A stretch of DNA of 14,074 bases from Candidatus Zixiibacteriota bacterium (GTDB lineage: Bacteria; Zixibacteria; MSB-5A5; GN15; PGXB01): the NCBI GenBank assembly GCA_900498245.1, contig LS998015.1, positions 1,376,306 to 1,390,379 on the forward strand, given 5' to 3'. Shown here in pieces: positions 1 through 13,869 of the stretch (the stretch's first letter is position 1; the number at the start of each line of letters is the position of its first letter). Made by a program: the position numbers and the translations under genes. Under the pieces are notes generated by a model, which was not told the DNA's origin, ran no database searches, and saw nothing but the letters and a program-made list of their open reading frames with translations.

Positions 1-168
1 CACCTGCATATGCATATCGTCCCGCGCTGGGCGGAGGACACCAATTTTATGCCGGTCATAGGGGGGACCAGAGTGGTCTCTTTTGATCTAAAGATGATTT
101 ATCGGATGCTCAAAAAAGGTTTTGATTCATTATGCCTCGAGGCAAAATCCCGACCAAAGCGGAGTTGA
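1..168 (+). CDS. HIT-family protein, Ap4A phosphorylase-like, 3' end only
   Basis: The frame is open from base 1 to a TGA at 166-168, and the 5' part lies outside the window. The first residues read [10 protein letters not shown], which is the histidine-triad motif (His-x-His-x-His); the middle His is the nucleotidyl-accepting residue in this superfamily. The stretch [13 protein letters not shown] right after it is typical of the HIT branch that includes Ap4A phosphorylases and related nucleotide hydrolases or transferases acting on dinucleoside polyphosphates. About 55 residues remain, ending in a basic tail. The last 37 bases overlap the start of the aconitase-like gene in another frame, so the two are probably co-transcribed and perhaps translationally coupled. 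The family is clear; the exact substrate cannot be decided from a fragment. Confidence 0.85.
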
Positions 169-1754
169 TACAGCTTCAGAAGCTGTACAAAACCGACGAG
201 AAAATTGCCGAGCGTCTGGGGGGAGTCACGCCGCAACTGGTGGCGTACTGGCGGCGGAAGAAAAATATCGCCCGGCATGCCTACCCCAAGTTTTCCGAAT
301 TGGATATCAAGGAAATGTGGGAGCGGTTCGGCGATGACTATCGGGCCGGACTGGAGTTGGGACTTTCGAAAGCGGCTTTTTATAACTGGCGGAGAAAATA
401 CGGCATCAAGGAAAAGCCGGCTTTCCTGAAACTGGAGCAATTGGAACTCAATCTCGGCGGACCGACCCGGGCCGCGGGGAAACGGCCCAGTTCCGGGAGC
501 CAGACCGCCGTGCAGAAAATTCTCTCCGAGCGATCCGGGCTCAAGCGGGTCGAAGTGGACCAGATGGTGAGCGTCGAGCCGGATCTCGTGGTGGTTCACG
601 ATGACGCCGCCGGGGTGATTGAGCGCTTTCAATCCAGCGGCCTGAAATACGTCTGGAATCCGGGCCGAATCATTATTTCTCTCGATCGCACCGTTCCAGC
701 CGCCAACGAAGAAACGGCGGCGGCGCACCATATGATTCGTGATTTTGTCCGGCGGCAGAACCTTCGGAATTTTTATGATGTCGCGGAAGGAAGCGGTCAC
801 CTGCTGGCGGTGGAGAACGGTCATATTCTGCCGGGCCAGTTGGCGCTCGGCACCGATCCCTTTGTCGCCTCGTTCGGCTGTATCGATTCATTCGCGGCGG
901 GAGTGACGCCGTCCGAAATGTCCGCGATCTGGGCGACGGGACGGCTGGAAACAATCGTACCGGCGACCATAAAAGTCAATATCAACGGGCGAATCGCTTC
1001 GGTTCTCTCGGCGAAAGATATCGCTTTATTCATATATAAGAATCTTCGGGAAGTAGAAATCTCCGGCAAGGCCATCGAGTTTAACGGCGCTGCCGTGGCC
1101 CAGATGCCGATTGCGGAGCGATTTACTCTCTGCAATTTCGCGGTGGCGATGGGCGCCAGGGCGGCGATCTGTCCATTCGACTCCAATACCCGTCGTTATT
1201 TTCTCGGCCGGACCCATATGCCGTACCGGCCGGCGCTGGCCGACAAAGATGCTGTCTATCTCGACACGTACGAATTCAACATCGACAATATCGGTCCACA
1301 GATTGCGATTACATCCGACGGGAGAAGGATTGCCGGGGTGGCCGAAGTGGAAGGAGTCCCGGTTCAGCAGATCGTGATCGGGTCCTGCGGTAATGCTCGG
1401 ATCGAAGATCTCAGGATTATTGCAGATATATTAAAAGGGAAGAAGATTCATTCCGAGGTGCGGATGCTCATTTATCCGGCCTCGCGGTCGGTCTATCTGG
1501 AAGCGCTGAAAAAAGGATTCCTGCGGGCGCTGGTGGAAGCCGGGGCCCTGATCATGAATCCGGGCAGCGGGCCGTGCCCGGCCGGGTTTCATAAAAATCT
1601 TGCTCCGGGTGAAAAATGTTTGACGACCGCGCCGCTTCGGCTCGATGATTTGCTTGATGGCGCAACAGGGGATATTTTTCTGGTCTCGGCGGCCACCGCG
1701 GCCGCATCGGCTCTCAAAGGTGTCATCTCTGATCCAACCGGATATGTAAGGTAA
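132..1754 (+). CDS. Tandem-HTH domain fused to a degenerate aconitase/LeuC-like domain (probable pseudoenzyme regulator)
   Basis: The protein has 540 residues. Residues about 10-95 hold two similar helical units, each ending in a matching basic motif (AYWRRKKNI at 38-46, YNWRRKYGI at 84-92), which looks like two helix-turn-helix repeats. After a linker (about 96-122), residues 123-540 follow the domain 1-3 core of 3-isopropylmalate dehydratase/homoaconitase large subunits, with [12 protein letters not shown] (418-428), the FTLCN segment (331-335), [15 protein letters not shown] (268-282) and LAPGEKCLT (490-498). Aligned by eye to LeuC/aconitase, the DSH motif is DPF (242-244), the conserved DH is D185-R186, the catalytic Glu equals A339, and the NRN-x2-GR segment is replaced after T499. 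Of three [4Fe-4S] cysteines, C419 and C482 remain but the middle one is S479. Dehydratase activity is therefore unlikely and a DNA-binding regulatory role is inferred. No small subunit (LeuD-like) gene is adjacent. The ATG at 132 has only a weak AAAAGG-like site and overlaps the HIT gene. Confidence 0.85.
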
Positions 1755-4662: not shown

Positions 4663-5415
4663 TTAGTTCATTTGTTTTTTATTACGAATTGTATCCTCAA
4701 GGGCGGCCAGTTCTTCCACGGAATTTATGCCGGTCACTTCGAACGGGTCGCCAATCGGCAATACCCGGCAGTCCCGCCCGGACCGGCGCAGGATTTTTAT
4801 GGTATCGGTCAGGTATAATTCCTTCTGGGCGTTGTTGTCATCGATTTTATGGAGAGCGGGGAACAGGTCGCCTGAAATAAAGCAGAAGGTGCCGGTATTG
4901 ACTTCCTTTATTTTTTTGGTCGTTTCGTCGGCATCTTTATATTCGATAATATCGGCCAGGAAGTCCGTTCCGGGCTCACGGATAATTCGTCCGTATTTGG
5001 CCGGATCATCATAAACCGCCGTCAGACAGGTCGCGGCTGAGCCGTTTTGATTATGAAAGTCAATCAATCCCCGAATAGTTTTTTCGGAAAGATACGGGAC
5101 ATCCCCGGCGGCCACCAGAATGTTACCGTCGAAATTTCTAAGTGCCTCCTCGGCCATCATGACGGCATGACCGGTGCCCCGCTGGTCTTTCTGCCAGACG
5201 AACTCGACCGGGAAATCTTTAAGTTCTTCGGCCACCATTTCGCCTTCGAAGCCTATGACGACGATGATGCGGCTGAAGGGGATAGCCGTCATCGTCCGGA
5301 GCAGGTGACGGATAAGCGGCTGGCCCTCGACGCGATGCAGGACCTTGGGGATTTCTGATTTCATCCTTGTCCCTTTGCCGGCGGCAAGGATGACGGCCGC
5401 GGTTAGTTTATTCAT
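4663..5415 (-). CDS. GlmU-type N-acetylglucosamine-1-phosphate uridylyltransferase domain, stand-alone
   Basis: This nucleotidyltransferase has 250 residues and most likely makes UDP-GlcNAc from GlcNAc-1-phosphate and UTP, a cytoplasmic precursor of peptidoglycan and LPS. It contains LAAGKGTRMKSEIPKVLH (10-27), Q76, RGTGHAV (79-85), the metal-binding GD (104-105), YGRIIRE (141-147), E154-like acidic residues, EVNTG (171-175) and TGINS (228-232). These match the pyrophosphorylase half of bifunctional GlmU. The left-handed beta-helix acetyltransferase half is missing, because the protein stops at 4663 with only 150 noncoding bases after it. Sugar specificity could differ from GlmU. The ATG at 5415 is preferred; an in-frame TTG at 5421 would add two residues. 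It follows panD by 20 bases, so the two likely form one operon. Confidence 0.88.
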   Translation of the reverse strand: MNKLTAAVILAAGKGTRMKSEIPKVLHRVEGQPLIRHLLRTMTAIPFSRIIVVIGFEGEMVAEELKDFPVEFVWQKDQRGTGHAVMMAEEALRNFDGNILVAAGDVPYLSEKTIRGLIDFHNQNGSAATCLTAVYDDPAKYGRIIREPGTDFLADIIEYKDADETTKKIKEVNTGTFCFISGDLFPALHKIDDNNAQKELYLTDTIKILRRSGRDCRVLPIGDPFEVTGINSVEELAALEDTIRNKKQMN

Positions 5416-5435
5416 GTTCAAATTCAGGGATAGAG

Positions 5436-13107: not shown

Positions 13108-13869
13108 CTATTTTTTCAGATATTCAGCGAGTTTCTGTTTCAGTTCAGCGCGATCAATATCATTGTCCAATAGCCCGTTGCTGGTGATTGAAATTTCGCC
13201 GGTCTCTTCGGAAACCACCACCGCGACGGCATCTGAGACCTCGGTAATGCCGATAGCCGCTTTGTGACGCATGCCGTACAATTTTCTATATTGCTGGGCC
13301 TGGGTCAGGGGGAGAGTGCAAGCCGCGGCCGCAATGGTATCACCGTTGACTATGACCGCGCCATCGTGAAGAGGCGTATATGGCGTGAATATATTGATTA
13401 TAACTTCCCAGGATATCTGGGCGTTGAGAATTTTGCCCGATTCGATAAAATTCCTCAGGCCCTCCCTTTTTTCAATAACAATCAAGCCGCCGTAGCGGAG
13501 TTCCGAGAGACGAACCGCGGCGCGGGAAATTTCCTCGACCGATTTCTGTTCTTCCGCCCGCACCAGATATTGGAAAATGCTGGAGTGGCCCATCCGGGCC
13601 AGGGCGGAACGGAGTTCCGGCTGGAACACTATTACCAGAACGATAAACCCGACTGTGGCCAGGTTGGAAAAGAGCCATGATAAACCTTCCAGTTGGAACC
13701 AGAATGCGATAAAGGCGACGACAAAAATCAGAAAGAGACCGGTGACCATCTGGGCGGCACGGGTTCCTTTCATCAGGGTCAATAATTGATAAATGATGAA
13801 CGATACCGCCAGGACATCGATCAAATCGACCAGCCGGAAAGAGATAAAACCGATATGAAACAGTTCCAT
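13108..13869 (-). CDS. cdaA: Membrane diadenylate cyclase, CdaA type
   Basis: CdaA condenses two ATP to cyclic di-AMP, a messenger for potassium/osmotic and cell-wall control. The 253-residue protein has three N-terminal membrane segments (about 13-32, 40-59 and 68-83), then VFQPELRSALARMG (81-94) that marks CdaA, and the DAC catalytic domain. The DGA motif is intact in PLHDGAVIV (166-174). The second motif, usually RHR, reads RHK (201-203) in YGMRHKAAIGITE; this is a conservative change. ETGEISI (222-228) follows as expected. The ATG at 13869 is one base after the folP stop, with AGGAG ten bases upstream, so it is co-transcribed with folP, a known neighbour in many phyla. Confidence 0.95.
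   Translation of the reverse strand: MELFHIGFISFRLVDLIDVLAVSFIIYQLLTLMKGTRAAQMVTGLFLIFVVAFIAFWFQLEGLSWLFSNLATVGFIVLVIVFQPELRSALARMGHSSIFQYLVRAEEQKSVEEISRAAVRLSELRYGGLIVIEKREGLRNFIESGKILNAQISWEVIINIFTPYTPLHDGAVIVNGDTIAAAACTLPLTQAQQYRKLYGMRHKAAIGITEVSDAVAVVVSEETGEISITSNGLLDNDIDRAELKQKLAEYLKK

Follow-up and report, generated by a model that had tools for sequence, protein, structure and literature searches.

The window (the whole stretch of 14,074 nucleotides analysed here) lies in a Zixibacteria genome that consists of one 3.5-Mb contig. At its start, the end of a HIT-family gene overlaps a gene whose frame joins a helix-turn-helix (HTH) head to an aconitase-type body. The features to which we refer are the following, with positions counted in the window.

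1..168, + strand: 3' end of the HIT-family gene, overlapping the fusion gene by 37 bp (Pfam HIT, 1.5e-17 for the full gene)
132..1754, + strand: double-HTH/pseudo-LeuC fusion gene, 540 residues, open frame with ATG start
153..272, + strand: HTH unit 1, residues 8–47 (sub-threshold HTH_23 match in 23 of 24 relatives)
294..410, + strand: HTH unit 2, residues 55–93, a duplicate of unit 1 by profile comparison (sub-threshold HTH_Tnp_1 match in 24 of 24 relatives)
438..455, + strand: QLELNL, residues 103–108, candidate beta-clamp-binding motif (conserved pattern)
501..1739, + strand: LeuC/HacA-type aconitase body, residues 124–536, catalytically dead as judged from its residues (family matches and site table)
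687..689, + strand: R186 in place of the His101 equivalent (site table)
858..863, + strand: P243-F244 in place of the Ser166-His167 equivalents (site table)
1386..1388, + strand: C419, the Cys358 cluster equivalent, kept (site table)
1566..1568, + strand: S479 in place of the Cys421 cluster equivalent (site table)
1575..1577, + strand: C482, the Cys424 cluster equivalent, kept (site table)
1635..1652, + strand: L502 to L507 in place of the Arg447/Arg452 equivalents, NRNFxGR motif lost (site table)

A preliminary description of this DNA had proposed a single uninterrupted frame of 540 residues with a LeuC/homoaconitase-like core, and both points are borne out: the frame is open from its ATG, and residues 124–536 match Pfam Aconitase (E 2.5e-59), NCBIfam PRK00402 (E 9.8e-113) and the solved IPMI/homoaconitase large subunits 4nqy, 4kp1 and 4kp2 (up to 9e-79). 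The homology to aconitase and IPM isomerase covers the whole large subunit. LeuC/HacA-type large subunits (PRK00402, TIGR01343 and the three structures) align with the body from end to end, but the protein in the window differs from them in its lost active site, in the added double HTH and clamp-type motif, and in having no LeuD adjoining. Its score falls just below the curated cut-off of PRK00402 and further below that of hacA_fam, and an intact relative (L087) scores above both. Ahead of the body, residues 1–108 comprise two HTH-like units with QLELNL at their end.

The fusion of head and body is real and widespread in the phylum. A search of related genomes found the head profile in 120 of 132 Zixibacteria genomes (76 of the 78 good ones), with one real copy per genome, attached in nearly all carriers to a frame of about 440–710 residues. 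Whole-length homologues of the fusion gene occur in about 50 of its 60 nearest relatives, and the start codon before a PTK motif, mostly ATG and sometimes GTG, is kept in frame across relatives. The conservation of the head and of the in-frame start across the phylum rules out a chance extension or a misplaced start. Outside the phylum, sampling covered 156 genomes plus a partly overlapping set of about 380, and among these several hundred genomes the head profile gave only two weak matches (E ~2e-4), consistent with other HTH proteins. On these grounds the fusion seems confined to Zixibacteria as far as sampled.

The presence of two HTH-like units in the first 95 or so residues, also proposed in the preliminary description, is supported by an internal duplication and by recurrent family matches, with the qualification that the match scores are sub-threshold and the structural model is of low confidence. 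The scores of residues 1–95 against HTH_Tnp_1 and HTH_23 lie below the curated cut-offs, yet these matches recur in all or nearly all of the 24 relatives compared. When the profiles of the two units were compared in a phylum-wide alignment, the score was 38.2 (E 9.2e-9) against a maximum of 15.4 among 60 column-permuted controls, and by this comparison the units arose by duplication. AlphaFold models could be built from one or two sequences and are of poor quality. The full-length model from a single sequence (pLDDT 38) is uninformative; the head model, with an overall pLDDT of only 54, has helices at residues 9–19, 22–28 and from 34 onward (local pLDDT ~60–78), which in this low-confidence model is the three-helix pattern expected of unit 1. 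A Foldseek search with the head model returned nothing significant, and a search of solved structures with the head profile gave no credible match. Overall, HTH folds in the head are likely, and by its sequence the head would bind DNA.

Chance-level matches of the head profile include short IS3-type transposase OrfA-like ORFs, whose HTHs resemble unit 2. The profile similarity of the OrfA HTH to unit 2 is weak, and OrfA differs from the fusion protein in having a single HTH and no aconitase body. These matches and the fast drift of the body could be taken as signs of a decaying gene, or relic, with a transposase-derived head. Such a history is extremely unlikely in view of the near-invariant single-copy head, the full-length frames in almost all genomes and dN/dS values of 0.05–0.08. 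Comparison of the window gene with its nearest relative gave a dN/dS of 0.053 for the head and 0.084 for the body, with a dS that is high and partly saturated, and this purifying selection rules out a pseudogene. The ratio of head identity to body identity is 0.91 in families with an intact active site and 1.42–2.16 across all degenerate families, which indicates that the head is the part most guarded by selection. Judged by these ratios, constraint on the body was relaxed without vanishing after the loss of catalysis, and the head was kept.

Immediately after the HTH units, QLELNL is preceded by an almost invariant KLE. The pattern Q[LMI]x[LFI]x[LFI] is present in 77 of 77 members, with its letters in 33 different combinations. 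The canonical form of a clamp-binding hexapeptide is Q-phi-x-[L/M]-x-[F/L] (PMC11139829); this strict form is found in 59 of 77 members, including QLELNL in the window, compared with 0.4% (0.004) of 25-residue segments from neighbouring proteins, although the motif was sought post hoc. In phage display against the clamp, LQLELDF was the most abundant binder (PMC11139829), and its hexamer QLELDF is carried by one member (L031). Hda binds the clamp via the hexapeptide QL[SP]LPL (PMC3836487), which the form Q[IM]QLPL in family f17 resembles. The fusion protein thus shares a hexapeptide of the form QLxLxL/F with Hda/HdaA and other beta-clamp binders; it differs from Hda/HdaA in lacking an AAA+ domain, in placing the motif after a double HTH, and in that its clamp binding is predicted from the motif. 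Residues 95–119 have a pLDDT below 50 in a poor model. By the motif argument, the hexapeptide would bind the beta-clamp, and residues 103–108 could instead dock on the body or on another partner.

To assess the body, we scored eleven positions which we take to be those of the active site, in mitochondrial aconitase numbering: D100, H101, D165, S166, H167, E262, C358, C421, C424, R447 and R452. A separate LeuC and both remote aconitases of the window genome carry 11 of 11 of these residues, which validates the choice of columns. The fusion protein in the window keeps five (D185, D242, E316, C419 and C482) and replaces six (R186, P243, F244, S479, L502 and L507), so that DSH has become DPF, DH has become DR, and the Arg pair of NRNFxGR is gone. 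The three ligands of the [4Fe-4S] cluster are incomplete, with C419 and C482 present and S479 in the third place; the CTHG Cys of archaeal enzymes is not a cluster ligand. From these replacements, the body in the window is catalytically dead, and an active enzyme is ruled out. The loss of the third Cys is recent, since the sister protein L009, 82% identical to that of the window, retains all three cluster Cys, although its DSH pair and both Arg are lost. Across the family the states are graded. All eleven residues are kept in 8 of 77 members (families f6, f12, f13 and f14), a further 11 members have the three cluster Cys without the full set of remaining sites, and 37 have no cluster Cys whatever; the E316 equivalent is kept in all 77.

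The preliminary description had inferred a transcription regulator that senses Fe-S status or a carboxylate ligand, and the two halves of that inference fared differently. A double-HTH head that is conserved across the phylum and held under purifying selection points most naturally to a role associated with DNA. Sensing through an aconitase-type active site is unsupported for the window, where S479, Pro243-Phe244 and the loss of both NRNFxGR Arg leave the site incomplete. The 37 of 77 members without cluster Cys exclude Fe-S sensing as a mechanism common to the family, and it is possible in those members that retain the cysteines.

The absence of a LeuD gene beside the fusion gene, noted earlier from the letters alone, holds for the window genome, where the next gene is a convergent rho, but not for several relatives, in which LeuD does adjoin. 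Elsewhere in the window genome, at C1:553588-555175, an intact LeuC is followed by LeuD, and the only stand-alone LeuD-like match of the genome sits directly behind that LeuC. An intact LeuD-like gene directly follows seven of the eight intact fusion genes; the exception is L107, with a different gene downstream and no LeuD. Beside five degenerate fusion genes (L040, L092, L095, L099 and L102), a LeuD-like gene is present in which the GCGSSREQA loop is lost to varying degrees. The positions of four of these genes, whose substrate loop is lost or altered, are as follows.

L040:9632-10114: LeuD-like small subunit
L092:6257-6718: LeuD-like small subunit
L099:5677-6162: LeuD-like small subunit
L102:2855-3358: LeuD-like small subunit

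The LeuD-like genes are apparently decaying alongside the large subunit. Since regain of an active site is implausible, an active fusion of HTH and isomerase, with LeuD, was probably the ancestral state. Unrestricted parsimony gives two changes of catalytic state, and without regain the drawn tree, whose backbone is weakly supported, implies about four losses; given that weak backbone, we limit the claim to catalysis having probably been lost more than once. The intact members raise the possibility of a bifunctional trigger enzyme, that is, an active isomerase that also binds DNA. Families f6, f12, f13 and f14, with all eleven residues and mostly an intact LeuD adjoining, may indeed be of this type, but for the window this is very unlikely, with six of eleven residues replaced, no adjacent LeuD and a separate intact LeuC-LeuD pair in the genome.

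The gene order around the fusion is highly consistent. By tblastn, all 56 loci have a HIT-family gene upstream; its absence from five loci according to a simple gene caller reflects caller errors. The two genes commonly overlap by 4 bp, and by 37 bp in the genus of the window, while in several f18/f19 and other loci they are separated by some hundred bases or more. Rad50/Mre11-like genes precede the HIT gene on the same strand in families f2, f5 and f15–f17, although these genes match known families far below the curated cut-offs, and most relatives within the order of the window have no DNA-repair gene adjoining. The loci with Rad50-like (~700 residues) and Mre11-like (~370–410 residues) genes are L050–L052, L057, L071, L072, L092, L093 and L095, with further ones at L097, L099, L100, L102 and L104. 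Before the HIT gene of the window genome lies a gene for a protein of 976 residues with TPR repeats, GAF, a sigma-54 activator part and a Fis-type HTH (L039:4592-7519, + strand). Elsewhere in the window we noted by eye a GlmU-like uridylyltransferase of 252 residues, apparently without the acetyltransferase half (4663-5421, - strand), and a CdaA-like diadenylate cyclase near obgE- and dprA-like genes (13108-13869, - strand).

The promoter region of the HIT operon contains the exact 12-mer AGAAACCRWTTG in six of seven family genomes; in the sister, one position differs. In the window genome, AGAAACCATTTG is at G000:C1:1375907-1375918 (locus L008/L039), about 390 bp before the start of the window. 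A regulon search with AGAAACCRWTTG gave five or fewer sites per genome and no enrichment relative to a reversed-pattern control. The 12-mer overlaps the likely -35 region and was chosen post hoc from the same sequences, and its role may be that of an operator or of a plain promoter element.

These observations bear on whether the protein could be a classical regulator, with the double HTH on operators and the body sensing a ligand of the tricarboxylate/malate type (or an Fe-S cluster where the Cys are kept), so that the metabolite level sets transcription and the short linear motif docks the head to the body. Conservation of the body at the level of the fold under purifying selection would fit such a regulator, as would the survival of D185, D242 and the universally kept E316 in the shell of the active site and the 11 dead members with all three cluster Cys. 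The occurrence of AGAAACCRWTTG before the operon and its lack of enrichment elsewhere are compatible with autoregulation, but the site may be a mere promoter element for the reasons given. Against it, the substrate Arg and the catalytic residues have been lost in ways that vary between families, and the cluster Cys are missing altogether from 37 of 77 members, which indicates that no common sensing chemistry survives; the gene in the window also has no adjoining LeuD, the subunit that contributes part of the substrate site. We consider such a regulator somewhat unlikely.

Both enzyme–DNA-binding fusions and nucleic-acid-binding aconitases are known kinds of protein. IRP1, AcnB and B. subtilis CitB are moonlighting aconitases in which the aconitase domains bind RNA in dependence on the state of the cluster. 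The fusion protein has the aconitase fold in common with them and, as we infer, a role with nucleic acid, but it has a separate HTH head and has lost cluster ligands; the intact cluster site of the RNA-binding enzymes is not found in the window, where the Cys421 equivalent is Ser. By analogy, the head might bind RNA or protein and cooperate with the HIT protein. The invariant partnership with HIT agrees with this, and three-helix HTH-like units can bind RNA or protein, but the head is similar to HTH families that bind DNA and to the HTHs of transposases, and the RNA-binding aconitases use the enzyme body and not an added HTH head; we regard the possibility as improbable. PutA, BirA and NadR also combine an enzyme body with a DNA-binding head, keep catalysis and regulate their own pathway, but their folds are different, and the enzyme of the fusion protein is dead in most lineages. 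Among the papers available for searching, none dealt with an aconitase–HTH fusion, a Zixibacteria aconitase or pseudoenzymes of the aconitase superfamily, and we know of no aconitase-family body with a dedicated double HTH, nor of such a graded series from active to dead.

We regard it as reasonably probable, though far from certain, that the protein is a DNA-binding, probably clamp-tethered pseudoenzyme that has kept the fold of its body and acts at DNA with the HIT partner. In such a protein, the two tandem duplicated HTH units would read an asymmetric DNA site, and a flexible segment with the beta-sliding-clamp hexapeptide would hold the protein at the replication clamp. The body would derive from the large subunit of an ancestrally active isomerase, working with LeuD, that lost catalysis in most lineages including that of the window, and the dead aconitase fold may be retained as a scaffold, for oligomerisation or as an altered ligand-binding part. 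The operon partner would be a nucleotide hydrolase or transferase of the HIT family, and the output could be control linked to replication or repair, perhaps with its own operon among the transcriptional targets. A role at DNA is more likely than one in leucine or citrate metabolism, given the shared operon with HIT and, in several families, the Rad50/Mre11-like neighbours. A bolder version, in which an isomerase was captured at the replisome throughout the phylum as a clamp-tethered pseudoenzyme, lost catalysis repeatedly and acts with the HIT enzyme in a novel replication or repair system, is possible and is offered tentatively. Aprataxin removes adenylyl groups from DNA, and one may speculate that the HIT partner acts in a like manner.

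The path from enzyme to regulator is thought to begin with the gain of nucleic-acid binding, followed by the loss of catalysis, and intermediates are rarely preserved. Here one orthologous gene, in a constant place in its operon, is found intact with LeuD, half-decayed with a decaying LeuD, and dead without LeuD. Such a graded series with a near-constant head makes the transition from an enzyme to a DNA-associated protein directly testable. Should the clamp motif prove genuine, Zixibacteria would also have a so far unrecognised protein associated with replication or repair.
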